From: a virus
Length of the DNA: 24,166 bases
Reading direction: 5' to 3' (one strand)
IMG/VR virus record: IMGVR_UViG_3300042516_003887
Span: 1-24,166 of that record
Position 1 is the stretch's first letter. The number at the start of each line of letters is the position of its first letter. The translations under genes and the position numbers were made by a program. The notes under the pieces are model-generated. The model had not been told where the DNA came from. It made no database searches and saw only the letters and a list, made by a program, of their open reading frames with translations. Positions 16,693-24,166 of the stretch are shown here, one piece after another.

Positions 16693-17469
16693 CTAAATCT
16701 TTATATGTCCGTGCTCGTAATATTCATTATATAGCTGAACGTATATTAATTTAAGTTTTTTAATTATTTTAGTAATCTGAGGAGTAGATACGTCGGTGAT
16801 TTCGCGTATATAAATGTATAATGCTTTTTTATTGAATATTTCTAATGTTTCGCGTTTGCGGAATAATTCAACAATAGCATCTGCTGTTTGAGCATCTTGT
16901 TTTTTAGGGAACAGTTTAAACAGATATTTGTCTATATACCTAATATATTGATCCATGAATGTATTACCATCCAGCATACTCTCAATATTCTTATCATTTT
17001 CATATAATGACATTTGTTCCTCATCAGATTCATCTACATCAACTTTTTCTTGAAGTTTCTTGTAGTTATTTTCATTATATACAATAAGATAGCGTTTGGC
17101 AATAGTACCAAAATAAGAGAATGCTTTACCCTTCTCAGGTTTATATAAGTGGAGTTTTTCGAGTAGGAATGTAATTACCTCGTGCTTTAATTCCTCAATA
17201 GTATCAGTATCAGTGTAGTAGAACTTAAATGTATGGATAATGTTTTCGGACAGTTTATAAAAACCATATTCAATACGGTCGTTATAAATGCGATTACGTT
17301 CAGCTTGATCAATACAAGCTAAATATTCTACAATAGCGTCTTCAGTATCTTGAGTGAAATAAATACGAGGTTCTTTTGGTTTACGCTTACGCGGTTTACC
17401 TCGTTTAGTAAGTGCTAATTTATCATCATCGGCGAAAATATCAGCACCGTAATTATCATAATATGACAT
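16693..17469 (-). CDS. gp55: Late-transcription sigma factor, T4 gp55-like
   Basis: The 258 residues include IIHTFKFYYTDTDTIEELKH (77-96), EVITFLLEKLHLYKPEKGKA (97-116) and FSYFGTIAKRYLIVYNENNY (117-136). This matches the conserved sigma region 2-like core of gp55 (helix, K-G-x-A-F-S-Y-F, helix), which recognises late-promoter -10 elements on the host polymerase. The N-terminus carries a basic patch (KRGKPRKRKPKEPR). T4 gp55 has about 185 residues; here a C-terminal extension of about 90 residues includes a helix-turn-helix-like stretch (LYIYIREITDVSTPQITKII). The gene has its own leader with an AGGAA sequence before the ATG, and it directly precedes the late structural genes it would activate. 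Confidence in the family is high; the role of the C-terminus is open. Confidence 0.85.
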   Translation of the reverse strand: MSYYDNYGADIFADDDKLALTKRGKPRKRKPKEPRIYFTQDTEDAIVEYLACIDQAERNRIYNDRIEYGFYKLSENIIHTFKFYYTDTDTIEELKHEVITFLLEKLHLYKPEKGKAFSYFGTIAKRYLIVYNENNYKKLQEKVDVDESDEEQMSLYENDKNIESMLDGNTFMDQYIRYIDKYLFKLFPKKQDAQTADAIVELFRKRETLEIFNKKALYIYIREITDVSTPQITKIIKKLKLIYVQLYNEYYEHGHIKI

Positions 17470-17490
17470 AGTGATTTCCTAATTTTACTC

Positions 17491-17522
17491 CCAATATATG
17501 GAAGGAAAGTTACGTAACCAAA
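17491..17522 (-). promoter_or_regulatory. Candidate Bacteroidota-type promoter for the gp55-like gene
   Basis: On the coding strand TTTG (17519-17522) and TATATTGG (17491-17498) are separated by 20 nt, resembling the -33 TTTG / -7 TAnnTTTG arrangement. The spacer holds a perfect palindrome GTTACGTAAC (17509-17518). The gap lacks ATATTTAT, consistent with expression by the host enzyme before late genes. Confidence 0.3.
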
Positions 17523-17795
17523 CTAGTTTCTAGAATTATTAAAATCACTTATGATGGTTTGGATTTCCTTTAAATTATTAAAGAATGTTCCTACTTCATC
17601 ATCTGCTTCAAATGCACCTTGAATATCTAATTCCTTTAATTTAGCATCCGAATTAGCAATTATAATACTAATAGCATCAATATATTGACGTTGTTCAACA
17701 ACTGCTTTTTCAAGCGCAGCATTACGTCTAATTAGTAATATACCACCAACTACAGCTAACTCAACAATATGTACAATTAATAATGTTAACCACAT
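17523..17795 (-). CDS. Small single-pass membrane protein with coiled-coil tail
   Basis: This is a 90-residue protein. Residues 1-23 (MWLTLLIVHIVELAVVGGIL) form one transmembrane helix followed by RR, which predicts the tail in the cytoplasm. Residues 30-90 are an acidic coiled-coil-like tail with EADDEVGTFFNNLKEIQTII. Small proteins with this N-terminal anchor and a DDEVG-x-F motif recur next to tail genes in T4-like environmental phages, to my recollection, but I know of no assigned function. It is 2 nt from the upstream 65-residue gene and ahead of the sigma factor gene, so the three form one unit. Confidence 0.7.
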   Translation of the reverse strand: MWLTLLIVHIVELAVVGGILLIRRNAALEKAVVEQRQYIDAISIIIANSDAKLKELDIQGAFEADDEVGTFFNNLKEIQTIISDFNNSRN

Positions 17796-17797
17796 AA

Positions 17798-17995
17798 TTA
17801 TCTAGCGAATTGTTGTGCAAAATCATCTCCTTCTAAAGAAATCATTTCACGTGTTTTTTCTACTTGTTCTTTTAAATCTTCAATAGACTCTAAAATTTGA
17901 TCTTGATCCATTCCTCTATTTACTTGGAATTGAATTTTAGTAATAGTAGATTCTAATTGTGTTAATTTATCTAATACGTTATTTTTGTATCTCAT
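17798..17995 (-). CDS. Small coiled-coil protein, conserved hypothetical
   Basis: This 65-residue protein is almost entirely helical. VLDKLTQLESTITKIQFQVN (residues 7-26) and ILESIEDLKEQVEKTREMIS are separated by a short turn, which suggests a helical hairpin or a dimerising coiled coil. The sequence resembles small conserved hypothetical proteins that accompany gp55-like genes in T4-like phages, as I recall them. It is the first gene of the unit 17995-16693, directly downstream of a G-run-rich tract and an ATATTTAT motif. No enzymatic motif is present. Confidence 0.65.
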   Translation of the reverse strand: MRYKNNVLDKLTQLESTITKIQFQVNRGMDQDQILESIEDLKEQVEKTREMISLEGDDFAQQFAR

Positions 17996-18010
17996 AATAT
18001 ATGTTTATAT

Positions 18011-18018
18011 ATAAATAT
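18011..18018 (-). promoter_or_regulatory. Candidate late promoter element ATATTTAT
   Basis: ATATATTTATATATAAAC lies about 15 nt ahead of the ATG at 17995, just after the G-rich tract. It would drive the 65-residue, membrane and sigma genes late in infection, in addition to any promoter closer to the sigma gene. Confidence 0.35.
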
Positions 18019-18027
18019 ATGTGCTTT

Positions 18028-18085
18028 CCCGTTCCCCAACCCCTCGCCGTTTTTCCCATTTCCCCCATTCCCTTTTTCCCAACCC
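18028..18085 (-). other. G-run-rich tract with G-quadruplex potential
   Basis: The coding strand carries eight runs of three to five G within 58 nt (plus-strand C runs at 18028-30, 18034-37, 18040-43, 18055-57, 18062-66, 18070-72, 18078-80, 18083-85) separated by 2-11 nt. Four adjacent runs with short loops suffice for an intramolecular quadruplex. No ORF on the minus strand uses this DNA, and it stands out in an AT-rich genome. Confidence 0.7.
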
Positions 18086-18121
18086 GCGTAGGTGGAAGTT
18101 ACGAAGGGGATTTTATACCTC

Positions 18122-18153
18122 CAAAGAAAAAGGGCATCTTTTTCAAGATACCC
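18122..18153 (-). terminator. Rho-independent terminator after the 237-residue gene
   Basis: The coding strand reads GGGTATCTT, loop GAAA, AAGATGCCC (a 9-bp stem with one G-T pair, 18132-18153), followed at once by TTTTTCTTT. It lies 27 nt past the stop codon of the gene at 18180. This is the clearest terminator in the window. Confidence 0.88.
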
Positions 18154-18179
18154 TACTTTTCTATATTATGTGTGAATTA

Positions 18180-18893
18180 TTACAATTTCTTAGAAGGATC
18201 AGCTGCACCAATAGCGCTACTTGCCTTTTGTAATTTTGCGTATAATTCTGGATTCTTTTGTTTGATTTTATCTTGTAACTTCATGATAGCAGCACTGCCT
18301 AACCCTAAACCACCTACACCTGCTAAAACACCTAAGATATCCATTACTGGAGATTCTTCAATTACTTCAGTTTCTTCTAAGTTTTTAGAAGGATCTGCTT
18401 TACCAATTGCACCGCTGATACCTTGTAATTTCTTAAATAATTCTGGCTTTTTAGCTTTTAAAACATCTTGTGCTTTCATAATAGCCGCACTACCTAAACC
18501 TAAACCAGCAACACCAGCTAAGATAGATAAAATTTCAACTGCAGGAGATTCTTCTAGAATTTCTTCGTTCTCGTCTAATTTTTCTTTGTCTTCGTCTTTA
18601 ACTTTTTTCTTTTCAGCTAATACAGCTTGTAATTCTTGACGAACCATTTCTTTTAATTCGTCTTTAGTCATTTTTTTCTTGTTATTTTCCATTTCTTTTA
18701 TGGTGTTAATTTTTGGAGATTGTTTTAAAATACCTTTAGCTATTTGTAATTGTTTTGGTTCGTCAATAGTCACTTCAAAATATCCCTTAAACTCATTATC
18801 TACCATTTGATTGGTATTTAATTCAACATCTGCTTTTTCCATTTGATTAAGAAAAGCAGCTTTGTCTTCTAGTTTTATTTTGAATGTAGCCAT
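18180..18893 (-). CDS. Protein with duplicated glycine-rich hydrophobic module
   Basis: The 237 residues comprise an N-terminal domain of about 65 residues (MATFKIKLEDKAAFLNQMEK), an amphipathic helix (MTKDELKEMVRQELQAVLAE, 75-94) of the type found near the ends of tailed-phage structural proteins, an acidic linker, and two copies of a roughly 60-residue module at 111-172 and 177-237. Each module starts EESP and contains LAGV-x-GLGLGSAAIMK, a glycine-zipper-like hydrophobic helix, then a charged helix ending SGAIGKADPSKNL or SSAIGAADPSKKL. It is a monocistronic unit with an ATATTTAT motif upstream and a strong terminator downstream, suggesting high, separate expression. A virion-internal or membrane-active protein is possible. 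I do not know the family. Confidence 0.75.
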   Translation of the reverse strand: MATFKIKLEDKAAFLNQMEKADVELNTNQMVDNEFKGYFEVTIDEPKQLQIAKGILKQSPKINTIKEMENNKKKMTKDELKEMVRQELQAVLAEKKKVKDEDKEKLDENEEILEESPAVEILSILAGVAGLGLGSAAIMKAQDVLKAKKPELFKKLQGISGAIGKADPSKNLEETEVIEESPVMDILGVLAGVGGLGLGSAAIMKLQDKIKQKNPELYAKLQKASSAIGAADPSKKL

Positions 18894-18901
18894 TGTTTAC
18901 A

Positions 18902-18909
18902 ATAAATAT
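18902..18909 (-). promoter_or_regulatory. Candidate late promoter element ATATTTAT
   Basis: ATATATTTATTG lies about 8 nt before the ATG of the 237-residue gene, matching the other late-gap copies. The spacing implies a very short leader. Confidence 0.35.
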
Positions 18910-18968
18910 ATCAAACAGCAATAAGCCATCGCTCCCTATTATAGTCTTGTGGCTACCAACACCAATCT

Positions 18969-19139
18969 TTAGATACGTATATACGCACGTTTAGCAGTAA
19001 AGAAATGCCATATCGCGTGTAATAGCATAAATCCCATAAATTGTAATGGGCTAATTCCAACGACAGACATACGATAGCGATGAAGGTAAATTAAGGCCAT
19101 ATGACCTAATAAAACTAGTAAGATATTAGTTAATTTCAT
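18969..19139 (-). CDS. Small two-helix membrane protein, 56 aa
   Basis: I translated this frame by hand; it runs ATG at 19139 to TAA at 18969. It begins MKLTNILLVLLGHMALIYLH and continues with RYRMSVVGISPLQFMGFMLL then HAIWHFFTAKRAYIRI. There are two hydrophobic helices (about 4-19 and 26-46) and a basic C-terminus (KRAYIRI), which predicts both ends in the cytoplasm. It lies 18 nt downstream of another two-helix membrane gene. Paired small membrane proteins in phage early regions can act in superinfection exclusion or host-membrane takeover, which is only a context-based guess. The frame is short, so some risk of a false gene remains. Confidence 0.6.
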   Translation of the reverse strand: MKLTNILLVLLGHMALIYLHRYRMSVVGISPLQFMGFMLLHAIWHFFTAKRAYIRI

Positions 19140-19157
19140 TTGATTTGTGGTTTTAAA

Positions 19158-19355
19158 CTATTTTTTTAATCGAATTTGTCCTAAATAAATTATTACAACT
19201 ATCGGTAGCATTAACCAACCGAATAATATACCACCGATAAAGTTAATTGATAGATCAAGTAGTGTGTGACGATGATTGTTTTCGTGTTCGCGTATACTGA
19301 CGAACCCAGCGATGAATAATCCGCTGAATAACACGTAAAATAAGAACATTTCCAT
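19158..19355 (-). CDS. Small two-helix membrane protein, 65 aa
   Basis: Residues 4-21 (FLFYVLFSGLFIAGFVSI) and about 37-59 (INFIGGILFGWLMLPIVVII) are hydrophobic helices joined by a polar, histidine-bearing loop (REHENNHRHTLLDLS). The C-terminus is basic (QIRLKK). The gene follows an upstream cassette of the early type (GATATTTAACC, AT-rich leader, GGTTATG) that overlaps the stop of the preceding 57-residue gene. It is co-oriented and nearly contiguous with the 56-residue membrane gene, so the two probably share a transcript. The function is unknown. Confidence 0.7.
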   Translation of the reverse strand: MEMFLFYVLFSGLFIAGFVSIREHENNHRHTLLDLSINFIGGILFGWLMLPIVVIIYLGQIRLKK

Positions 19356-19384
19356 AACCTTTTATTTGTTTGGTTAAATATCCG
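19356..19384 (-). promoter_or_regulatory. Small-gene promoter cassette, copy 14
   Basis: GGATATTTAACC (box 19373-19383), a CAAACAAATAAAA leader and GGTTATG match the longer-leader version of the cassette. The box shares bases with the stop codon of the 57-residue gene. Confidence 0.4.
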
Positions 19385-19547
19385 ATGGAGGTTTTGCCTG
19401 AACAACTGATCCACTCATTATTGCTTGTTGCCATTCATCAAGTGTTAATCCGTATTGCGCGGCTTCCGCGGTTTGTTGACGTAACGCCGCTTCGATGAAT
19501 GCTTCTTTAGTTAACATCAATGAATCCTGTATATACTTTTTCGACAT
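19374..19547 (-). CDS. Small helical protein, 57 aa
   Basis: I translated this frame by hand from an ATG at 19547 to a TAA at 19374. It starts MSKKYIQDSLMLTKEAFIEA, then ALRQQTAEAAQYGLTLDEWQ, and ends QAIMSGSVVQAKPPSDI. The body is helical and soluble, with no membrane segment or cysteine. LTLDEWQQAIMSG looks like a helix-turn element, but no DNA-binding family can be claimed. The ATG follows a T/A-rich leader without a Shine-Dalgarno sequence, downstream of the GC-rich structured region. Natural amino-acid composition and agreement with the surrounding gene direction support it. Confidence 0.6.
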   Translation of the reverse strand: MSKKYIQDSLMLTKEAFIEAALRQQTAEAAQYGLTLDEWQQAIMSGSVVQAKPPSDI

Positions 19548-19619
19548 AAAAAATTTTGTTTAAAAGAGATTTTGAGGTTTTCGCAAGTGGTTCCAAAATG
19601 GGTTAAATGAAAATGCGGG

Positions 19620-19828
19620 TATAAATATGGGGGATATGCGTATATACTGTCGGGGCGTAGAGATCGTGTGCGAGTTGAAAATCCCCATAGCTTTTTTGTG
19701 CGCAACCACGGCCCGTCGATGGACCGCAATTATCATGGGAGCATTCCGTCGTCAGACCGCTATCGGGACGCTAACAACCGCTAGCGACCCGATCCTTCAG
19801 AACTTTGTATGCCCGAGCATCATGCCCA
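19620..19828 (-). ncRNA. Candidate structured RNA in GC-rich gene-free region
   Basis: The stretch from the EF-hand stop codon to about 19620 is much richer in G and C than its surroundings (36 of 60 bases at 19741-19800). On the minus strand it folds on paper into ATCGGG-T-CGCTA / TAGCG-T-CCCGAT with an 8-nt loop (19762-19793), GCGGTCC / GGGCCGT with loop ATCGAC (19708-19727), and a long-range pairing of TATGGGGAT (19681-19689) with ATCCCCCATA (19626-19635). No frame looks like protein. It could be an RNA, a transcript-end structure or a replication element. 19548-19620 shows nothing beyond an ATATTTAT copy at 19621. Confidence 0.35.
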
Positions 19829-20035
19829 TTAGATTTTAATTCCCACGGTAGCCATCATGCGCTTGTATTCATCTGGTGACTCGTCACCGTATCCGCCTGA
19901 GTTATCATCACCCATGCCTATCTCATTTAATATCGCTTGTGCTTCCGCTTTCGATACCCATCCATCACCATCAACATCGTATATGTTACCTACATAGTAC
20001 ATATCATTCATGTTCATTAATTCGTTTACGTTCAT
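19829..20035 (-). CDS. Small EF-hand calcium-binding protein
   Basis: This 68-residue protein contains a complete canonical EF-hand loop at residues 20-31, DVDGDGWVSKAE: acidic residues at loop positions 1, 3, 5 and 12 (D20, D22, D24, E31), glycine at 6, and valine at 8. A following helix (AEAQAILNEIGM) and a preceding helix of Met/Asn-rich sequence complete one hand. The tail is acidic and glycine-rich (DDNSGGYGDESPDEYKRM). The single loop could bind Ca2+ as a dimer or act as a dockerin-like half. It is the last gene of a three-gene unit (64, 51, 68 residues) from the cassette at 20401. There is no signal peptide, so an intracellular role is likely; its target is unknown. Confidence 0.75.
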   Translation of the reverse strand: MNVNELMNMNDMYYVGNIYDVDGDGWVSKAEAQAILNEIGMGDDNSGGYGDESPDEYKRMMATVGIKI

Positions 20036-20042
20036 ACTCTGG

Positions 20043-20198
20043 TTATTTTAATTTATTAACGTTAGTAATTACTATATCACATACTTCGTTTTTGAGGTTT
20101 TCATAATCACTAGGTGATAATGTATCTTCAATACCCATTCCATCTAATAGACTTAATAAGTCCTGTTGTAGTTGTTCTTTTAATTCGTTTGTGTTCAT
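20043..20198 (-). CDS. Small acidic helical protein, 51 aa
   Basis: I translated this frame by hand from an ATG at 20198 to a TAA at 20043. It begins MNTNELKEQLQQDLLSLLDG, continues MGIEDTLSPSDYENLKNEVC and ends DIVITNVNKLK. It is acidic and helical, with leucine-rich heptad-like spacing. It is separated from the upstream 64-residue gene by 7 nt and from the EF-hand gene by 7 nt, so all three are co-transcribed. Its N-terminus (MN-x-NEL) resembles that of the EF-hand protein (MNVNEL), which may reflect shared start-region sequence. The function is unknown. Confidence 0.6.
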   Translation of the reverse strand: MNTNELKEQLQQDLLSLLDGMGIEDTLSPSDYENLKNEVCDIVITNVNKLK

Positions 20199-20205
20199 AC
20201 TTTAA

Positions 20206-20400
20206 TTATAGTTTACCTGTTAATTTTAATTCGTTTATTTCCTCATTTACTTCATCCATAGCTAGACGTCCAATCTCATCACCGATTTTATCTATCAGGT
20301 TAGTTACTACATCCACATTAACGAAATGTGAATCTTTGTCGTTTAGTAATACATTTAAGCTGTAATACACTTCATTTAACTCTTGTAATGTTAATTCCAT
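20206..20400 (-). CDS. Small acidic helical protein, 64 aa
   Basis: I place the start at ATG 20400 (MELTLQELNEVYYSLNVLLN). The longer frame from 20418 begins inside the repeated cassette leader, where the sister copy at 20900 has the same ATGATAAAATTAAAACGT. The protein is acidic and helical throughout (VNVDVVTNLIDKIGDEIGRL, then AMDEVNEEINELKLTGKL), suggesting a small two- or three-helix bundle. It is the first gene of the unit 64 aa, 51 aa, EF-hand. No family is recognised. Confidence 0.65.
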   Translation of the reverse strand: MELTLQELNEVYYSLNVLLNDKDSHFVNVDVVTNLIDKIGDEIGRLAMDEVNEEINELKLTGKL

Positions 20401-20435
20401 ACGTTTTAATTTTATCATGACGTGAATATATGATC
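20401..20435 (-). promoter_or_regulatory. Small-gene promoter cassette, copy 13
   Basis: TATATTCACG (20421-20430), then TCATGATAAAATTAAAACGT to the ATG at 20400. It is nearly identical to copy 11 at 20900, including the bases next to the upstream stop codon. Confidence 0.5.
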
Positions 20436-20436
20436 G

Positions 20437-20667
20437 TTACTCAGCCCAACCGCTAAATGGATCAACATATTGAGTTAATTCATCTATGTCTATTTTCCAC
20501 GTTGCGGTTTGTGTTTTAACTAACGCCGTTACTTTGTTCATTTTAATTATGATACCGTACTCAGTGTTTAACCACATACTCATACCTCGATCGTTAATTG
20601 ATCTGTTGAATTGAACGCGATCACCTACTTGAAATGTTACTACTGGTTGTGTTGTTATTTGTTTCAT
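20437..20667 (-). CDS. Small SH3-like barrel protein, 76 aa
   Basis: The start is set at ATG 20667 (MKQITTQPVVTFQVGDRVQF). A longer frame would begin within the preceding gene and read through the promoter box. The sequence is beta-patterned: VGDRVQFNRSINDRGMSMWL is followed by TEYGIIIKMNKVTALVKTQT and a C-terminal WKIDIDELTQYVDPFSGWAE. The V-G-D-R-V...G-I-I...A-x-V pattern is that of KOW/SH3-like small barrels, which often bind nucleic acid or protein. The specific ligand cannot be stated. It has its own cassette. Confidence 0.65.
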   Translation of the reverse strand: MKQITTQPVVTFQVGDRVQFNRSINDRGMSMWLNTEYGIIIKMNKVTALVKTQTATWKIDIDELTQYVDPFSGWAE

Positions 20668-20698
20668 ATCATTATTATTATGACGTGAATATATGTGT
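20668..20698 (-). promoter_or_regulatory. Small-gene promoter cassette, copy 12
   Basis: TATATTCACG (20684-20693) followed by TCATAATAATAATGAT and the ATG at 20667. This copy has the shortest, most A/T-only leader of its subgroup. Confidence 0.5.
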
Positions 20699-20899
20699 TT
20701 ATTTCTGACCACCCCATCTCATCATTGCAACTGATATTGTAGGTAAACCTAATACGAACCCGTAGAACGTCCATGCGTTAATGAGTTCAGGGCCATCAAT
20801 CGGACCGTCTGATCCAGCTCCAATTACTATTACTGCTACCATTACTACTGCCCATACTGCTAATAACGCAGCACCTGTTTTACTTACTGTTTGTTTCAT
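20699..20899 (-). CDS. Small two-helix membrane protein, 66 aa
   Basis: The start at ATG 20899 (MKQTVSKTGAALLAVWAVVM) is preferred, because the upstream in-frame ATG at 20917 is part of the cassette leader. Residues 9-28 (GAALLAVWAVVMVAVIVIGA) and about 41-60 (AWTFYGFVLGLPTISVAMMR) are hydrophobic helices around a short acidic loop (GSDGPIDGPEL). The N-terminus is basic and the tail ends WGGQK, so both termini are probably cytoplasmic. Its first codons ATGAAACAAA match those of the neighbouring 76- and 80-residue genes. The function is unknown. Confidence 0.65.
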   Translation of the reverse strand: MKQTVSKTGAALLAVWAVVMVAVIVIGAGSDGPIDGPELINAWTFYGFVLGLPTISVAMMRWGGQK

Positions 20900-20934
20900 A
20901 CGTTTTAATTTTATCATGACGTGAATATACGATT
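20900..20934 (-). promoter_or_regulatory. Small-gene promoter cassette, copy 11
   Basis: TATATTCACG (20920-20929) with leader TCATGATAAAATTAAAACGT to ATG 20899. The leader contains an in-frame ATG that I treat as part of the repeat, not the start. Confidence 0.5.
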
Positions 20935-20935
20935 G

Positions 20936-21178
20936 TTACTCTGCCGTAGCGCGTTGAGGTACTGTTTCGTTATTAATCGCTCTAATACGTTTAGCAGCAT
21001 ATGTGTATTCATCTATATGTAACTTTAGGCTACTCAATAACTCACGTTTAGCGTCTGCTAATTTGAAGAACGTAGTGTGGTAATTATCAACGTGTTCTTT
21101 ATGTGTGTTGATTACTACTATGTTACTATAGCATCCATCATGCTCGATGTGGTACGCTTTAATCATCTTTTGTTTCAT
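20936..21178 (-). CDS. Small soluble protein of unknown function, 80 aa
   Basis: Two ATGs, at 21184 and 21178, begin the frame two codons apart (MSMKQK). The cassette alignment favours 21178 (MKQKMIKAYHIEHDGCYSNI), which also matches the ATGAAACAAA of its neighbours. The body mixes a beta-like N-terminus (CYSNIVVINTHKEHVDNYHT) with a helical C-terminus (FKLADAKRELLSSLKLHIDE). Three histidines and one cysteine are not arranged as a clear metal site. It is basic to neutral and soluble. No family is recognised. Confidence 0.6.
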   Translation of the reverse strand: MKQKMIKAYHIEHDGCYSNIVVINTHKEHVDNYHTTFFKLADAKRELLSSLKLHIDEYTYAAKRIRAINNETVPQRATAE

Positions 21179-21210
21179 ACTCATTAATTTTATACCGTGA
21201 ATATACGAAC
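21179..21210 (-). promoter_or_regulatory. Small-gene promoter cassette, copy 10
   Basis: TATATTCACG (21196-21205), leader GTATAAAATTAATGAG, ATG at 21178. Compare copy 9, which has GTATAAAATTAAATGAT. Confidence 0.5.
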
Positions 21211-21214
21211 CGAA

Positions 21215-21502
21215 CTATGCCACGGCACGTTTCGGTGTATATTGAGCTTCCCAATATATGATTATTGATTTCATATACTCGTTAATCGCCTCACAATCGG
21301 CTTTAGCTTCATCGCTCGCCCAATTAAGGCATATTGCATCTTGGTAACTACGATTCCATTCGATTGAATCATCAATTGATGAGCCGTGTTTTTGGAATGT
21401 TAATGAACCATGAAACCCATCATCGTCAACACTGTAACCTAAATCACTAACGAACTGACATACTGTCCTTGTAATCATGTTCTTAATTTCTTTCTTATTC
21501 AT
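21215..21502 (-). CDS. Small soluble protein of unknown function, 95 aa
   Basis: The start at ATG 21502 (MNKKEIKNMITRTVCQFVSD) follows a clean cassette; the longer frame from 21541 would translate the promoter box itself. The protein has an N-terminal helix, then SVDDDGFHGSLTFQKHGSSI, an acidic central part (DDSIEWNRSYQDAICLNWAS) and a C-terminal helix (EAINEYMKSIIIYWEAQYTP) ending KRAVA. Two tryptophans and several aspartates are visible, but I can name no motif. Confidence 0.65.
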   Translation of the reverse strand: MNKKEIKNMITRTVCQFVSDLGYSVDDDGFHGSLTFQKHGSSIDDSIEWNRSYQDAICLNWASDEAKADCEAINEYMKSIIIYWEAQYTPKRAVA

Positions 21503-21534
21503 ATCATTTAATTTTATACCGTGAATATATGAAC
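21503..21534 (-). promoter_or_regulatory. Small-gene promoter cassette, copy 9
   Basis: TATATTCACG (21520-21529), leader GTATAAAATTAAATGAT, ATG at 21502. A small GGG-CAATGT-CCC hairpin lies directly upstream, next to the stop of the preceding gene. Confidence 0.5.
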
Positions 21535-21545
21535 GGGACATTGCC

Positions 21546-21731
21546 CTACAAGTGGACGCGTTGCACTACGTTGTGTAGGCTTCCGAATCGTACGTGTTGA
21601 CACCATTCGAACTCGGGTAACTTAGACGGAGGTTGTACGGTGCGTTTAGGTTGCTCAACGCCATATTCCATGTTGATTGGTTCACCCACGACTTTAACCC
21701 CAAATAGAAATTCTATTAGTATATTTATCAT
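21546..21731 (-). CDS. Small protein of unknown function, 61 aa
   Basis: The start at ATG 21731 (MINILIEFLFGVKVVGEPIN) is chosen, since the longer frame from 21776 starts inside the upstream hairpin. The first 15 residues are hydrophobic and could be a weak membrane anchor or a buried strand. The rest is polar (MEYGVEQPKRTVQPPSKLPE, then FEWCQHVRFGSLHNVVQRVH). It has a proline-rich middle and no recognised motif. It lies between the three-hook AT-hook gene and the 95-residue gene, with its own cassette and hairpin. Confidence 0.55.
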   Translation of the reverse strand: MINILIEFLFGVKVVGEPINMEYGVEQPKRTVQPPSKLPEFEWCQHVRFGSLHNVVQRVHL

Positions 21732-21757
21732 AACTTTTATTTGTGTGGTAAATATAT
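21732..21757 (-). promoter_or_regulatory. Small-gene promoter cassette, copy 8
   Basis: TATATTTACC (box 21748-21756), leader ACACAAATAAAAGTT, ATG at 21731. This subtype, with CACAAATAAAA in the leader, also occurs at copies 6, 7 and 14. Confidence 0.45.
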
Positions 21758-21778
21758 GGGTGGAGCTACGCCCCACCC
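21758..21778 (-). terminator. GC-rich hairpin between gene and next cassette
   Basis: GGGTGGGGC, loop GTA, GCTCCACCC forms a 9-bp stem with one G-T pair, 7 nt after the stop of the AT-hook gene and abutting the next promoter box. No long T tract follows, so termination is likely but not certain. Confidence 0.55.
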
Positions 21779-21785
21779 ACTTTAA

Positions 21786-22040
21786 TTAAGCTACTGATTC
21801 AACGATCAATGCTTTTGCTGGGCGACCACGCTTAATCGTTTCACCAGCTGCGATTCTAGCTGCTTGAGCTGCTAATTTCGCTTGACGTGCTGAACCTTGA
21901 CTAGCGGGTCTACCACGCTTTACTTCACCACCCGCTGCTACGCGAGCCGCTCTTGCTGCTAAACGCGCTTGACGAGCTGAATTACTTACTGTTGGACGAC
22001 CTCTTTTACCTGTGTTTTTTACTGTTGTACTTTTTGACAT
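21786..22040 (-). CDS. Triple AT-hook DNA-binding protein, 84 aa
   Basis: Three copies of the AT-hook core RGRP, each preceded by K, occur at residues 13-16, 42-45 and 71-74, exactly 29 residues apart. Between them lie two near-identical helical linkers (SARQARLAARAARVAAGGEV and SARQAKLAAQAARIAAGETI). AT-hooks insert Arg-Gly-Arg into the minor groove of AT-rich DNA, so a three-hook protein should bind such DNA with avidity and could bend or bridge it. The protein is strongly basic and lacks any other domain. The gene has its own cassette and ends before a hairpin. Likely roles are a phage nucleoid-type protein or a modulator of transcription or replication. The family call is strong and the role is inferred. 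Confidence 0.85.
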   Translation of the reverse strand: MSKSTTVKNTGKRGRPTVSNSARQARLAARAARVAAGGEVKRGRPASQGSARQAKLAAQAARIAAGETIKRGRPAKALIVESVA

Positions 22041-22086
22041 AACCTTTTGTTTTATTTATTTATTATTTGTGTATTGTAAATATCGG
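22041..22086 (-). promoter_or_regulatory. Small-gene promoter cassette, copy 7 (long leader)
   Basis: GATATTTACAATACACAAAT (box 22076-22084) precedes an AT-only leader extended by AATAAATAAAT-like repeats and GGTTATG at 22040. The extra leader distinguishes the AT-hook gene from its neighbours. Confidence 0.45.
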
Positions 22087-22108
22087 AACTTAATTCTGCC
22101 TCGACTAA

Positions 22109-22312
22109 TTATCTCACTACAGCGTTTCTCATACTATCACTACCAAACCTAATCCCAGCATGAAATATACATAATACATCCATACCATCATTCACTTCAA
22201 ATATGATTAAATCTTGGTTGTCATTGTATTCTCTAACTTCAATACGATCTTCACCTAATTCTTCTACTAAGTAAGGTACTCTTTCCTTTGTAATCGCTAA
22301 TTCTAATTTCAT
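22109..22312 (-). CDS. Small protein of unknown function, 67 aa
   Basis: This is a 67-residue acidic protein. A helix-rich start (MKLELAITKERVPYLVEELG) is followed by strands (DRIEVREYNDNQDLIIFEVN) and DGMDVLCIFHAGIRFGSDSM. The alternating pattern suggests a compact alpha/beta fold. The start follows the cassette directly (AAAAGTTATG), so no alternative is needed. I recognise no family and see no membrane segment. Confidence 0.65.
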   Translation of the reverse strand: MKLELAITKERVPYLVEELGEDRIEVREYNDNQDLIIFEVNDGMDVLCIFHAGIRFGSDSMRNAVVR

Positions 22313-22350
22313 AACTTTTAATTTTTATTTGTGTACCGTAAATGTATGAA
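22313..22350 (-). promoter_or_regulatory. Small-gene promoter cassette, copy 6
   Basis: TACATTTACG (22337-22346), leader GTACACAAATAAAAATTAAA then AGTT and ATG at 22312. The box abuts the hairpin at 22348. Confidence 0.5.
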
Positions 22351-22369
22351 GCGGGTTTTGCCCCGCCTC
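22348..22369 (-). terminator. GC-rich hairpin, near-identical to that at 23482
   Basis: GAGGCGGG, loop GCAAAA, CCCGCTTC gives an 8-bp stem with one G-T pair. It sits between the stop codon of the 104-residue gene and the next promoter box. It differs from the hairpin at 23482-23503 by a single base. Confidence 0.6.
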
Positions 22370-22377
22370 ATTTTTAC

Positions 22378-22692
22378 TTAGTAACTTACATTAACTTCTT
22401 CTATAATATCATTTGTCATTTCATTTATTTTTTGGGCAAGGGCCTTGTCCCAATCAATTCCCATTTCCAAATGAAATTGCTTAAACTTTCTCCAATTATT
22501 ATAACCTTCAATTGGTATGCCCATATATGTAATATCACTTATATCTGCAAATTCAATTTCATCTTCCCCTTCATTGGGCTCATTTAATGTGCCAAGTGTT
22601 CTACAAACTTGCATTTGTGCTTTACATTTTAATTCACCTACTTGGACCGGAACTTCGACCATAACCATTAATAACGTTTGTGTAACTTTCAT
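22378..22692 (-). CDS. Small acidic protein of unknown function, 104 aa
   Basis: The first 30 residues are beta-like and hydrophobic (MKVTQTLLMVMVEVPVQVGE, then LKCKAQMQVCRTLG), followed by an acidic stretch (NEPNEGEDEIEFADISDITY) and a helical C-terminus (WRKFKQFHLEMGIDWDKALA). It is the longest of the small cassette genes. Two cysteines near the start could pair or bind a ligand, but no motif is clear. The start lies exactly after the cassette leader. The function is unknown. Confidence 0.65.
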   Translation of the reverse strand: MKVTQTLLMVMVEVPVQVGELKCKAQMQVCRTLGTLNEPNEGEDEIEFADISDITYMGIPIEGYNNWRKFKQFHLEMGIDWDKALAQKINEMTNDIIEEVNVSY

Positions 22693-22730
22693 ATTTTTTA
22701 ATTTTTAATTGTGTAACGTAAATATATAAA
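22693..22730 (-). promoter_or_regulatory. Small-gene promoter cassette, copy 5
   Basis: TATATTTACG (22717-22726), leader TTACACAATTAAAAATTAAA then AAAT and ATG at 22692. No strong hairpin is visible upstream. Confidence 0.5.
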
Positions 22731-22741
22731 CGAAACGCTGC

Positions 22742-22966
22742 CTAATCTAATGTTGCTAATTGCATCATAGTATTAACAATTACTTCATGGGCAGTGTGTG
22801 TTTCATAACCCATATCTTCATAAATGTTAACTAGGTCGAGCAATGTATTTGCCCTTTCAAATTTATTTTCTGTTTCACCAATAACAGAATCAGGTACTTC
22901 ATTATCGTATTGTATTTCTACTTCGCCCTGACATAATATGCCTTTTAATTGTTCAAATGTTATCAT
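22742..22966 (-). CDS. Small acidic helical protein, 74 aa
   Basis: The sequence (MITFEQLKGILCQGEVEIQY, then DNEVPDSVIGETENKFERAN and TLLDLVNIYEDMGYETHTAH) is acidic and largely helical. The C-terminus EVIVNTMMQLATLD is another helix. There are no membrane segments and no known motif. It is preceded by its own cassette, and its stop lies close to the next one. The function is unknown; small acidic early phage proteins often bind host factors, but nothing here identifies a target. Confidence 0.65.
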   Translation of the reverse strand: MITFEQLKGILCQGEVEIQYDNEVPDSVIGETENKFERANTLLDLVNIYEDMGYETHTAHEVIVNTMMQLATLD

Positions 22967-22997
22967 AACTATTAATTTTATAACGTGAAGATATAAA
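22967..22997 (-). promoter_or_regulatory. Small-gene promoter cassette, copy 4
   Basis: TATCTTCACG (22984-22993), leader TTATAAAATTAATAGTT, ATG at 22966. Its box is the TATCTTC variant shared with copy 3. Confidence 0.45.
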
Positions 22998-23027
22998 TTG
23001 TGTTTTGCCCCACCCTATTTTATTTAA

Positions 23028-23246
23028 TTAATTTTTCCAATCACATCTATTATTTTCTTCTAATATACCTTCACTTATATAACACATATTTAATCTTTCT
23101 AATTCATCTATAAAATAACAAAATGCACTATTCCCATAATATTTAACACATTTATTATATACTTCACCTATACTTAATTCATTATTATAAATTTTAATAA
23201 TACAATTATCTACAATTTTTTTACTTCTTTTACTTAATTCTTTCAT
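23028..23246 (-). CDS. Small basic helical protein, 72 aa
   Basis: MKELSKRSKKIVDNCIIKIY opens a 72-residue, mostly helical protein with a basic N-terminus and an acidic C-terminus (CYISEGILEENNRCDWKN). Four cysteines (15, 33, 43 and 55, with another near the end) are scattered without a zinc-finger pattern. VYNKCVKYYGNSAFCYFIDE is rich in aromatics. Its DNA is markedly more AT-rich than that of the AT-hook genes on either side. I do not recognise it. It has its own cassette. Confidence 0.6.
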   Translation of the reverse strand: MKELSKRSKKIVDNCIIKIYNNELSIGEVYNKCVKYYGNSAFCYFIDELERLNMCYISEGILEENNRCDWKN

Positions 23247-23277
23247 ATTTTTTAATTTTATAACATGAAGATATGAA
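23247..23277 (-). promoter_or_regulatory. Small-gene promoter cassette, copy 3
   Basis: TATCTTCATG (23264-23274 region), leader TTATAAAATTAAAAAAT, ATG at 23246. A short GGGT...ACCC pairing lies immediately upstream. Confidence 0.45.
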
Positions 23278-23297
23278 TTGGGTCCTGCCCCACCCCA

Positions 23298-23453
23298 CTA
23301 AAATGAAATATAATCAATGGCTTTTTGACCTATCGATTTACCATCTTTAGTAATTTCATAATCAGGATCCATACCTGAAATCATAATATGAGCAATCAAA
23401 TCACCAATGCAGGTAAATTCGGCTCCGTAATAATCACATTTTAAACTATACAT
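23298..23453 (-). CDS. Small protein of unknown function, 51 aa
   Basis: I translated this frame by hand from an ATG at 23453 to a TAG at 23298. It begins MYSLKCDYYGAEFTCIGDLI, continues AHIMISGMDPDYEITKDGKS and ends IGQKAIDYISF. The composition is natural, and the ATG sits precisely behind a cassette, which is the main reason to accept so short a gene. The pattern suggests a small alpha/beta fold with two cysteines. Without it, the cassette and its strong hairpin at 23482 would serve nothing. No family is recognised. Confidence 0.65.
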   Translation of the reverse strand: MYSLKCDYYGAEFTCIGDLIAHIMISGMDPDYEITKDGKSIGQKAIDYISF

Positions 23454-23484
23454 ACTTATTAATTTTATAACGTAAATATAAGAA
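23454..23484 (-). promoter_or_regulatory. Small-gene promoter cassette, copy 2
   Basis: TATATTTACG (23471-23480), leader TTATAAAATTAATAAGT, ATG at 23453. It is close to the consensus of all copies. Confidence 0.5.
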
Positions 23485-23503
23485 GCGGGTTTTGCCCCGC
23501 TTC
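23482..23503 (-). terminator. Perfect GC-rich hairpin between small genes
   Basis: GAAGCGGG, loop GCAAAA, CCCGCTTC is a perfect 8-bp stem, 3 nt after the stop of the 57-residue gene and overlapping the edge of the next promoter box. It probably ends the upstream transcript; the TTCTTATATTT that follows is only partly T-rich. Confidence 0.65.
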
Positions 23504-23506
23504 AAA

Positions 23507-23680
23507 TTATTTACTATATTTTTCAATTTTAAGAATGTAACCCCAAACATAATCAGGAATCATATCCATCATATTGTTGTCATCGTAGTAGTCAACCAAA
23601 TGTTTAACATTAGCATTGATAATAGCTAACTTTTCCATGTAGTTTAGTTGTGTTAGTTCTTCGTCTAATTCTTTTGGCAT
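23507..23680 (-). CDS. Small acidic helical protein, 57 aa
   Basis: The start is placed at ATG 23680 (MPKELDEELTQLNYMEKLAI), directly after the cassette. The longer frame from 23719 would run through the promoter box. The sequence is acidic and helical (INANVKHLVDYYDDNNMMDM, then IPDYVWGYILKIEKYSK). An aspartate cluster (DYYDDNN) is visible but is not an EF-hand. The stop is followed at once by the perfect hairpin at 23482. The function is unknown. Confidence 0.65.
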   Translation of the reverse strand: MPKELDEELTQLNYMEKLAIINANVKHLVDYYDDNNMMDMIPDYVWGYILKIEKYSK

Positions 23681-23714
23681 ATATTTTAATTTTTGTGTAA
23701 CACAAATATATGAA
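23681..23714 (-). promoter_or_regulatory. Small-gene promoter cassette, copy 1
   Basis: TATATTTGTG (23701-23710) contains an exact TAnnTTTG, the Bacteroidota -7 consensus, followed by TTACACAAAAATTAAAATAT and ATG at 23680. This copy is the best link between the repeat family and a host-type promoter. Confidence 0.55.
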
Positions 23715-23725
23715 CACAATTTGGC

Positions 23726-24166
23726 CTACCTACGATTTGATTTAGGTCGTCCACGTTTACCCCCTGTACGGACACGAGTCGCTGCTTTCGCTGCAACACG
23801 ACTCGCAATAACAGCGTCGCTTACTTTTGGTCGGCCGCGTTTACCCCCTGTTTTAGCCTTAACGATTGGTGTTTTATCTGATTTTGGACGGCCACGTTTA
23901 CCACCACTACGTTCCGATTTAGCTATTTTCTCGGCGTCGCGTGCTGCCTTAAGTGCTGGGTCTAGTGCTGGTCTACCCCGTTTCCCTGTTGATTCCGGTT
24001 TCGGTTTAGCGCTACGCTTCGCGTCGCGTTCTTTCTGCTTAGCAATTTTCTCCGCGGTGCGGTGCATTTTGTCTAATGTCTTCTTATGTTTAATTACGGC
24101 TGGATGTATAATAACCTGATCCAAATCATAACATCTCAGTCCACCACTCTCGTCGCGTACCTCAAA
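23726..24166 (-). CDS. Four-AT-hook DNA-binding protein, 5' end beyond window
   Basis: The frame is open to the window edge (147 codons counting the stop). The segment before the TTG at 24124 (FEVRDESGGLRCYDLDQVII) reads like normal protein and no cassette precedes that TTG, so I treat the gene as truncated by the window. Four GKRGRP hooks lie about 28, 19 and 27 residues apart in the C-terminal 85 residues, each in G-K-R-G-R-P-[AK]. The linkers are Ala/Lys/Arg-rich helices (DPALKAARDAEKIAKSERSG, VSDAVIASRVAAKAATRVRT). A basic helical segment (KIAKQKERDAKRSAKPKPES) precedes the hooks. The protein should bind AT-rich DNA through the minor groove; an N-terminal domain of unknown type may lie outside the window. 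Confidence 0.8.
   Translation of the reverse strand, partial: FEVRDESGGLRCYDLDQVIIHPAVIKHKKTLDKMHRTAEKIAKQKERDAKRSAKPKPESTGKRGRPALDPALKAARDAEKIAKSERSGGKRGRPKSDKTPIVKAKTGGKRGRPKVSDAVIASRVAAKAATRVRTGGKRGRPKSNRR

Follow-up and report, generated by a model that had tools for sequence, protein, structure and literature searches.

Promoter-like cassettes repeated before small genes of a relative of Flavobacterium phages, and hybrid gene junctions that meet in their box

Why would a phage place near copies of one short sequence ahead of small gene after small gene? The question is raised by a 24,166-nt stretch of viral DNA (IMG/VR record IMGVR_UViG_3300042516_003887; hereafter the window) from a relative of Flavobacterium phages. 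Sequence comparison makes it quite likely that the copies are composite terminator-promoter-leader modules of about 50 bp, which would act both as pre-late promoters for small genes and as recombination hinges.

A one-strand array of cassettes

A sequence-only reading of the window had claimed a modular array of fourteen near-copy cassettes, one per small gene or unit. All 14 boxes were located on the minus strand, each 25-44 nt before the ATG of a small gene, and all were recovered by a 44-column matrix trained on other phages only (ten relatives contributed its 110 sites, and no site equals a 44-mer of the window), with scores of 27.5-42.7. At a cut-off of 8 the matrix added one weak site in the window (18019, score 13.3) and gave none on the plus strand; the Markov null was 0.35 hits per window at this cut-off and 0 at 15. 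The cassettes, in window coordinates and with the box start given first, are as follows.

Cassette 1, 23681..23733 (minus strand): box TATATTTGTG at 23710-23701, an exact TAnnTTTG; GGCC in the place of GGCA; leader; ATG 23680, 57 aa
Cassette 2, 23454..23503 (minus strand): strong terminator-like hairpin 23503-23482 (z -5.1) adjoining box TATATTTACG at 23480-23471; ATG 23453, 51 aa
Cassette 3, 23247..23296 (minus strand): weak hairpin (z -0.7); box TATCTTCATG at 23273-23264; ATG 23246, 72 aa
Cassette 4, 22967..23016 (minus strand): GGGGCA; box TATCTTCACG at 22993-22984; z -0.8; ATG 22966, 74 aa
Cassette 5, 22693..22749 (minus strand): box TATATTTACG at 22726-22717; ATG 22692, 104 aa
Cassette 6, 22313..22371 (minus strand): strong hairpin (z -6.5) adjoining box TACATTTACG at 22346-22337; ATG 22312, 67 aa
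Cassette 7, 22041..22107 (minus strand): box GATATTTACA at 22084-22075; long leader; ATG 22040, 84-aa protein with three KRGRP motifs
Cassette 8, 21732..21780 (minus strand): strong hairpin (z -4.9) adjoining box TATATTTACC at 21756-21747; ATG 21731
Cassette 9, 21503..21552 (minus strand): box TATATTCACG at 21529-21520; ATG 21502, 95 aa; hybrid junction relative to other phages
Cassette 10, 21179..21228 (minus strand): box TATATTCACG at 21205-21196; ATG 21178, 80 aa
Cassette 11, 20900..20952 (minus strand): box TATATTCACG at 20929-20920; without hairpin (z -0.3); ATG 20899, 66 aa
Cassette 12, 20668..20716 (minus strand): box TATATTCACG at 20693-20684; ATG 20667, 76 aa; hybrid junction
Cassette 13, 20401..20453 (minus strand): box TATATTCACG at 20430-20421; ATG 20400, 64 aa; hybrid junction
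Cassette 14, 19356..19405 (minus strand): divergent box GATATTTAAC at 19382-19373 with GGCA; score 28.5; ATG 19355, 65 aa

Cassettes 11 and 13 are identical in box and leader. The two genes after that of cassette 13 (ATG 20198 and 20035) have no cassette, and like the gene with ATG 19547 they lack a box. The first codons said to be shared by three neighbours are indeed ATGAAACAAA at 21178, 20899 and 20667, while the box variants need amending, copies 3 and 4 reading TATCTTC and copies 7 and 14 beginning GATATTT. Between the box region and the ATG, the leader of 13-32 nt is AT-rich rather than AT-only as had been claimed, a strictly AT-only leader occurring in 1 of 14 copies.

The span given for the array contains its 14 sites, but the true array is longer. 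A 179-kb relative (G001) contains the same DNA, and there the array extends at least 8 kb beyond the window's end: a refined scan found 38 sites, all on one strand, at a threshold expected to yield about 1, and 28 of the 38 fall at 44.5-61.6 kb, 14 of these past the window's end. As a sequence motif, promoter-like cassettes number 278 in 25 of 26 contigs. A strict cassette pattern (corrected spacer scan) matched 4 IMG/VR contigs, and a looser version was also found in some fetched loci. Among cultured phages, blastn with window positions 19000-24166 gave no match.

Cassette anatomy and possible readers

The box had been read as the Bacteroidota -7 element TAnnTTTG. According to PMC6847099, the Flavobacterium johnsoniae element TAHHTTTG, with a nearly invariant G as its eighth base, occupies positions -12 to -5, and transcription begins 4-5 nt further on; on this spacing +1 would fall on a conserved A of the cassettes (14/14 in the window,.83 of 198 matrix-chosen sites). 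The TA..TTT-type core stands, as does the lack of a Shine-Dalgarno sequence, and the weak -33 region described for housekeeping promoters in the same paper may have a counterpart here. The eighth base does not: among sites picked by the upstream element alone it is A in 114/120 and G in 2/120, and only copy 1 of the 14 has an exact match at -12 to -5, as had been noted for that copy. With A in place of the host's nearly invariant G, the unaided host sigma factor may read these boxes poorly.

Two elements were absent from the earlier reading. One, G(G/T)CARA, sits 16 nt before the box and, together with a TC element, sets the cassettes further apart from the housekeeping promoters in the PMC6847099 excerpt. 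Relative to the box start, the window copies have G at -16, C at -14 and A at +12 in 14/14 each. A matrix-free check in 25 contigs other than G001 found G(G/T)CA at -16 in 148/385 core boxes lying 20-51 nt before an ATG frame versus 9/432 other core boxes (p 1e-44). In matrix-chosen sites the -33 TTG is less well conserved than GGCARA, being weak in the window's group (T.45, T.55 and G.68 at -23..-21 in 198 sites), and about a third of the sites have C at -6.

The other element is a hairpin adjoining the box in about a third of cassettes, roughly two thirds being without one. Hairpins of E <= -6 occur at 69/188 cassettes versus 20/188 starts scored below zero by the matrix (p 3e-9). Single hairpins number 89 among 257 distinct boxes, and in 76 of these the GGCARA place is covered by the loop, with the 3' arm ending at -6..0. 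GGCARA also persists in 112 of the 168 cassettes that lack a hairpin, so it is more than a loop sequence. When 17000-24166 was scanned for terminators, 6 sites turned up, not clearly more than the 3.7 (sd 2.1) of shuffled sequence; one of them is a cassette hairpin, on the gene strand. The T-rich tails of cassette hairpins are imperfect. Over the same interval a consensus scan found fewer sigma-70-type sites (23) than the shuffle mean of 32.7, and sigma-70 promoters were set aside. The sole Rfam match in 19000-24166 up to E 1 scored 17.9 against a gathering threshold of 60, the GC-richer gap at 19560-19832 folded no better than shuffles (z -0.43), and no tRNA was found in the window.

On this anatomy, roughly one module in three would open with a hairpin resembling an intrinsic terminator, which may end the upstream gene; the loop of this hairpin covers GGCARA, and the box follows as its T-rich tail. 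The promoter would be read by host RNA polymerase with Bacteroidota-type geometry, through a weak TTG near -35, GGCARA near -28, TC at -15/-14 and TATATT(T/C)A at -12 to -5, starting at the conserved A, and the AT-rich leader would close the module ahead of the ATG. With a copy for each small gene or unit, the region would be an array of independently promoted genes.

Promoter letters also divide the genes of G001. G(G/T)CARA-N10-TA..TT occurs at 11/31 array starts versus 0/57 others, and ATATTTAT, a second, one-element class, at 25/57 other starts versus 2/31 array starts; the host consensus TAHHTTTG is found at 2/31 and 2/57, with a tile rate of 143/4847. Because array promoters differ from the ATATTTAT class ahead of many non-array genes, the array genes are probably expressed, early or middle, before the late genes, many of which have the ATATTTAT box.

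The cultured Flavobacterium phage immuto (NC_055915) carries an array of its own at the equivalent genome position, on the 5' side of the baseplate genes. Like the window, it has near-identical cassettes before many small genes, with hairpins (E <= -6) in 6/21; unlike the window, these read AGTTG-N20-TATATTTAGGTATCAATAATTAAAA without GGCARA. In 45 kb of immuto, 16 exact sites have TTG placed 20 nt ahead of TATATTTAG; shuffles gave 0. The immuto feature tables consulted do not mark the array, and no phage RNA polymerase stands out in them as a box reader, one 100-aa product being 'RNA polymerase, subunit N'.

One protein of the window bears on the choice of reader.

Sigma-factor-like protein, 16693..17469 (minus strand): 258 aa, outside the array; all scores below formal cut-offs

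Compared with a T4 gp55-type late sigma factor, it has a sigma-70 region 2 match of 15.1 bits against a cut-off of 24; among 20 aligned relatives, 10 matched phrog_1740, with E 0.0027 at best. With a structure model of pLDDT 67, most of the 50 Foldseek matches listed were initiation-complex chains or named sigma factors (best E 0.1). A PDB sequence search with its profile gave no match, and for sigma-70 region 4 nothing exceeded the cut-off in five records, a single sub-cut-off match, in record G021, containing an internal stop. We regard the protein as a candidate reader of the ATATTTAT class.

As for the cassettes, we tentatively suggest that they may form a phage promoter class of their own, defined by TATATT(T/C)A, in which -5 is A, and by GGCARA at -28, poorly read by the host housekeeping sigma factor, with a phage factor re-aiming host polymerase. 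The array would then be a phage-specific regulon of interchangeable genes that pass from phage to phage like cartridges and are joined at the -7 element; the terminator would stay with the gene upstream, and the leader would accompany the gene downstream. In T4, MotA and AsiA replace a weak -33-type contact at middle promoters. Middle-type promoters, at which a phage activator or phage-altered host polymerase would use GGCARA in place of the weak -33 contact and the array would fire after a first gene set, would fit the conservation of GGCARA over the -33 TTG, its recovery without a matrix and its persistence in hairpin-less cassettes, and also the A rather than host G at -5 in both the window's group and immuto. 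We are nevertheless doubtful of them, as no candidate activator gene was identified, the immuto cassette has a TTG at canonical spacing and no GGCARA, and no TAHHTTTG set able to fire first stands out in G001. It is improbable that the sigma-like protein itself reads the cassettes. The gene is located close to the array and is kept at the corresponding place in immuto, yet it sits among virion genes, its product's likeness to sigma factors falls under formal cut-offs, and a sigma factor in which no region 4 was detected would pair better with the one-element ATATTTAT class.

Gene exchange at the box

The sequence-only reading had also predicted gene exchange in the shared flanks, to be sought by comparing relatives; the comparison found swaps with their joints in the box, and hybrid junctions could be seen directly. 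At box 1989 of contig G017, the left flank is identical over 60/60 positions to that of box 595 in G003, and the right flank over 60/60 to that of box 60338 in G001; on the other side these two match it in only 23/60 and 15/60. With the joint free to fall anywhere between -45 and +45 (90 bases), 20/277 junctions were hybrids of two others, many of the 20 being copies of one event in near-duplicate contigs. The parental identities meet inside the 10-bp box in 18 of the 20, the two exceptions having gaps at -9..0 and -12..0, and in 16 the right-hand identity begins with the box's first base or the base preceding it.

Hybrids were found at 28/144 box anchors with a close partner versus 5/115 box-less starts (p 3e-4). 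Swaps upstream of the same downstream sequence were likewise more frequent at boxes (89/144 versus 45/115, p 4e-4) in a test tolerant of leader length, and equally frequent (44/102 versus 39/86, p 0.77) in one intolerant of leader length changes. By protein family, next-gene order was kept at 113/244 cassette junctions versus 112/210 box-less ones; as order is about equally conserved, protein families do not support a higher overall shuffling rate. An earlier box-anchored search, permitting joints only at about -3 to +15, gave 14 hybrids, one of them doubtful (c8267 3360). An ORF-anchored search gave one doubtful hybrid at cassettes and three at ATGs called box-less, the latter an effect of ORF calling, which for some genes places the start at an ATG within the leader.

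As near-identical sequences with a common 10-bp box, the copies could recombine with one another, within or between phages, and so delete, insert or swap whole genes; the hairpin side would remain with the gene upstream and the leader with the one downstream. Illegitimate recombination anywhere, with selection alone holding junctions at gene borders, would account for the swapping of box-less small genes and for a next-gene order about as unstable there; we consider it unlikely, given where the identities of free-joint hybrids meet and the enrichment of hybrids at boxes. Still harder to credit is a repeat that is mainly selfish or passive in recombination, or a translational leader, and not a promoter. 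Similarity does reach into the leader and first codons, and swaps happen there, but the fixed internal spacing fits a promoter, the copies lie on one strand in one orientation to the ATG, and immuto builds the Bacteroidota promoter geometry from different letters.

Relation to known systems

The sequence-only reading knew of no described family of this kind in Bacteroidota phages. Among the matches listed in the open-access literature no description of such arrays surfaced there, and a term search of PMC7077304 returned none of immuto, promoter, terminator or transcription; the kind of design is, however, known from T4-like phages and HGTV-1. The promoter early stem-loops (PeSLs) of T4-like phages are reportedly due to Arbiol 2010 and Comeau 2014. 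In the excerpt of PMC4503421, PeSLs are composites of promoter and stem-loop, repeated where genes change and tied to modular gene shuffling. Here the repeated promoter motif before many small genes is present as a sequence motif, and shuffling appears as hybrid junctions that join in the box, enriched over box-less starts. With the T4 layout taken in outline only, the cassettes differ in their Bacteroidota-type core (not sigma-70 -35/-10) and extra GGCARA, in a hairpin that is present in about a third, overlaps the promoter spacer and has the box as its tail, and in a joint within the 10-bp box. They are thus built from different sequences, and we do not class them as PeSLs, although by analogy they would act like them.

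These results suggest that swappable modules with one promoter per gene also exist in Bacteroidota-type phages, where the promoters are spelled differently from those of T4; such a design may therefore be a general way of maintaining a changing stock of small genes. Metagenomes resolve the joints to the base, so that the trade in small genes among phages becomes directly testable, and the cassettes are candidate compact promoters for Flavobacterium genetics. A PeSL-like motif is also described for the haloarchaeal virus HGTV-1 (excerpt of PMC3950731), where the promoter is of archaeal type and both virus and host domain differ.

The box and its upstream element

Aligning the 14 window cassettes on their 10-bp box confirmed all 14 boxes where the sequence-only reading had placed them and brought out a second element that it had missed. 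Counted from the first base of the box, G stands at -16 in 14/14 copies, G at -15 in 13/14, C at -14 in 14/14 and A at -13 in 11/14; nearer the box, 12/14 have C at -2. At a cut-off of 8, a 44-column matrix built from 110 sites in ten relatives regained the 14 boxes (scores 27.5-42.7), added a single weak site (18019, score 13.3) and picked up nothing on the opposite strand of the window. The Markov null gave 0.35 matches per window at cut-off 8 and 0.05 at 12, and had fallen to zero by 15. G001, a relative of 179,381 bases, carries the window's array DNA at essentially full identity. Here a seed-and-refine scan returned 33 to 38 sites (threshold expectation ~1). The last round placed every site on the gene strand; 28 of the 38 lie within 44.5-61.6 kb and 10 elsewhere, several of those weak and not near an ATG.

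Related contigs were chosen non-randomly, by match to the array, to two array genes or to the cassette pattern. Matches came from 15 of the 20 records searched with the array, and 11 of these entered the set; G002 (a duplicate end), G005 (no box), G007 and G013 were left out. With 15 more, the final set comprised 26 contigs, several of them near-duplicates, and boxes occur in 25. Across 198 ORF-linked sites in this set, the upstream element reads G (.92), G (.79) or T (.19), C (.90) and A (.79), frequencies biased toward the element because the selecting matrix includes those columns; a weak TTG lies at -23 to -21, and A at +12 in.83. A matrix-free check in the 25 contigs other than G001 gave the same answer: G(G/T)CA stands at -16 in 148/385 core boxes that have an ATG reading frame 20-51 nt downstream and in 9/432 of the remaining core boxes.

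The earlier view of the box as a host-type TAnnTTTG promoter may hold for its geometry but fails at its last base. Flavobacterium johnsoniae promoters, as described in PMC6847099, have nearly invariant T-12, A-11, T-8, T-7, T-6 and G-5, a start 4-5 nt downstream of the element and a weak -33 element. Placed over the boxes, this geometry would put the start on the conserved A and give leaders of 13-32 nt. Phage boxes end in A, however, whereas the host element ends in G. Among sites picked by the upstream element alone, the last base is A in 114/120 and G in 2/120; core boxes before reading frames, with both letters permitted, gave 352 A and 33 G. TAHHTTTG showed no clear enrichment before G001 genes (2/31 array starts, 2/57 others, 143/4847 tiles).

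The window is an IMG/VR fragment of a contractile-tailed phage, encoding an endolysin and baseplate wedge proteins (PHROGs). Its closest annotated relative is the Flavobacterium phage immuto (NC_055915), cultured on Flavobacterium sp. LMO8 and represented by 3 isolates plus a RefSeq copy (4 records), with a baseplate wedge 45% identical across 99% of its length. Flavobacterium would be the host, which we infer rather than assert because a phage deposited under Microcystis also matches in the same baseplate wedge search (42%). The pattern TTG-N19-21-TAHHTTTAG has 31 copies in immuto; the gene strand carries 30 of them, 24 of these at 60.9-76.2 kb. Of the 9 copies in the host form with final G, 8 are on the opposite strand. 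Thus the window's group and immuto, with unlike cassettes, both have the final A. In immuto the cassette reads AGTTG-N20-TATATTTAG, has a leader of its own and is present in 16 exact copies in 45 kb (shuffles, 0). The immuto array (NC_055915, 60.9-76.2 kb) uses other letters than the window's and is unmarked in the feature tables examined.

Gene swapping at the box

Comparison of relatives supported the earlier proposal that genes are swapped at shared flanks. In the 31 junction pairs from different contigs with the same upstream gene, similarity lasts as far as the box and is down to background past the ATG; the 16 pairs with the same downstream gene stay near background until about -21 and are alike from the box onward. 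With pairs collapsed to anchor families (13 same-upstream, 9 same-downstream), similarity was 0.63 vs 0.31 at -60 to -22 (p 0.003), 0.64 vs 0.38 at -10 to -1 (p 0.01) and 0.32 vs 0.72 at +30 to +60 (p 0.003). The two groups did not differ within the box (0.82 vs 0.78, p 0.66), nor significantly at +10 to +24 (0.62 vs 0.78, p 0.13).

Hybrids, junctions composed of two parental junctions, numbered 14 in 278 boxes (one doubtful) in a box-anchored search, where only joints near the box are detectable. A second search, tolerating length changes and leaving the joint free from -45 to +45, found 20 in 277 boxes, several being one junction in different contigs and so not independent. Parental matches overlap inside the box in 18 of these 20, and the right-hand match starts at the box's first base or one earlier in 16/20; at c8267 3360 and c20161 2479, a gap just upstream of the box separates them. 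Box 1989 of contig G017 matches one parent at 60/60 on its left and another at 60/60 on its right. Box 830 of contig G003 matches its two parents at 56/60 and 60/60, and the gene lying between both parental cassettes in G001 is absent there.

Rates were compared at anchors with a close partner, 144 boxes and 115 box-less ATGs in the length-tolerant test. Boxes exceeded box-less ATGs in same-upstream swaps (64/144 vs 31/115, p 0.004), same-downstream swaps (89/144 vs 45/115, p 4e-4) and hybrids (28/144 vs 5/115, p 3e-4), with p values that ignore shared ancestry. The intolerant test, likewise uncorrected for ancestry, gave 44/102 vs 11/86 same-upstream swaps and 14 vs 3 hybrids, with no difference in same-downstream swaps (44/102 vs 39/86). 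On the hybrid and rate tests, the box is, as read from sequence comparison, the place where cassette junctions recombine. The DNA test also suggests that it makes the region more fluid than other stretches of small genes; the protein-family test does not, next-gene conservation being similar there (113/244 cassette vs 112/210 box-less junctions).

Hairpins and a second promoter-like class

The 33 nt that lead up to the box fold at -6 kcal/mol or below in 69/188 distinct cassettes vs 20/188 control starts, defined by a matrix score below zero (p 3e-9). A single hairpin of that strength is found in 89 of 257 distinct boxes, 76 of the 89 having the loop over -16 to -11 and the 3' arm ending at -6 to 0. 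Many cassettes have no hairpin and extend over the end of the preceding gene. A distance of at least 22 nt from the end of the closest upstream stop codon to the box is seen in 72% of the 94 boxes with a hairpin vs 44% of the 138 others. Six of 11 folded window copies reach -6, and three fall below -16 with no shuffle equally stable; repeat folding gave z -4.9 to -6.5 for those three and -0.3 to -0.8 for three others. Immuto has the hairpin in 6/21 cassettes. A scan with a terminator pattern speaks against the hairpin signal: it matched 6 sites in window 17000-24166 vs 3.7 (sd 2.1) in shuffles, and one of the 6 is a gene-strand hairpin belonging to a cassette.

Within 60 nt of spaced G001 gene starts, ATATTTAT precedes 25/57 non-array and 2/31 array genes (tiles, 72/4847). 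Such starts number 36 among 191 non-array genes: 89% have an A standing 12 nt from the first motif base, no upstream element is conserved, and GGCA or GTCA occupies the matching place in 2/36. This class looks like a one-element late promoter. The window holds copies and a candidate regulator:

Upstream of 17995, 18893, 10580 and 4680: ATATTTAT class
16693-17469, minus strand: gene for a sigma-like protein, similarity under formal cut-offs

The 16693-17469 product is probably a late sigma, a reading drawn from distant similarity and a predicted fold. Pfam sigma region 2 scores 15.1 bits (cut-off 24) and is weak in 3/5 records; phrog_1740 (RNA polymerase sigma factor) is matched in 10/20 aligned relatives, best E 0.0027. 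The model is of middling confidence (pLDDT 67), and the best 50 of its 174 Foldseek matches are mostly named sigma factors or chains of transcription-initiation complexes, with a best E of 0.1. An immuto homologue (47% identity, 224 columns), annotated hypothetical, adjoins the immuto array.

Known systems and other array features

The sequence-only reading knew no such family in Bacteroidota phages, and we found no description of such arrays there among the open-access matches listed; the kind itself is known, its closest example being the promoter early stem-loops (PeSLs) of T4-like phages. A similar motif is described for HGTV-1 in PMC3950731. The arrays studied here seem to serve the purpose that PeSLs serve, from which they differ in their Bacteroidota-type core, extra GGCARA element and hairpin fused into the promoter. 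Further features of the array are:

19560-19832: GC-richer gap inside the array, no clear gene or cassette; partial matches in relatives
19829-20035, minus strand: small protein, possible EF-hand (20.9 bits, cut-off 25)
21786-22040, minus strand: array protein with three KRGRP (AT-hook-like) motifs
23726-24166, minus strand: array protein with four KRGRP (AT-hook-like) motifs

The gap gave nothing above cut-off in Rfam and folded no better than shuffles. Proteins with at least two RGRP number 27, spread over 16/26 contigs, and the KRGRP proteins could possibly bind the AT-rich leaders.
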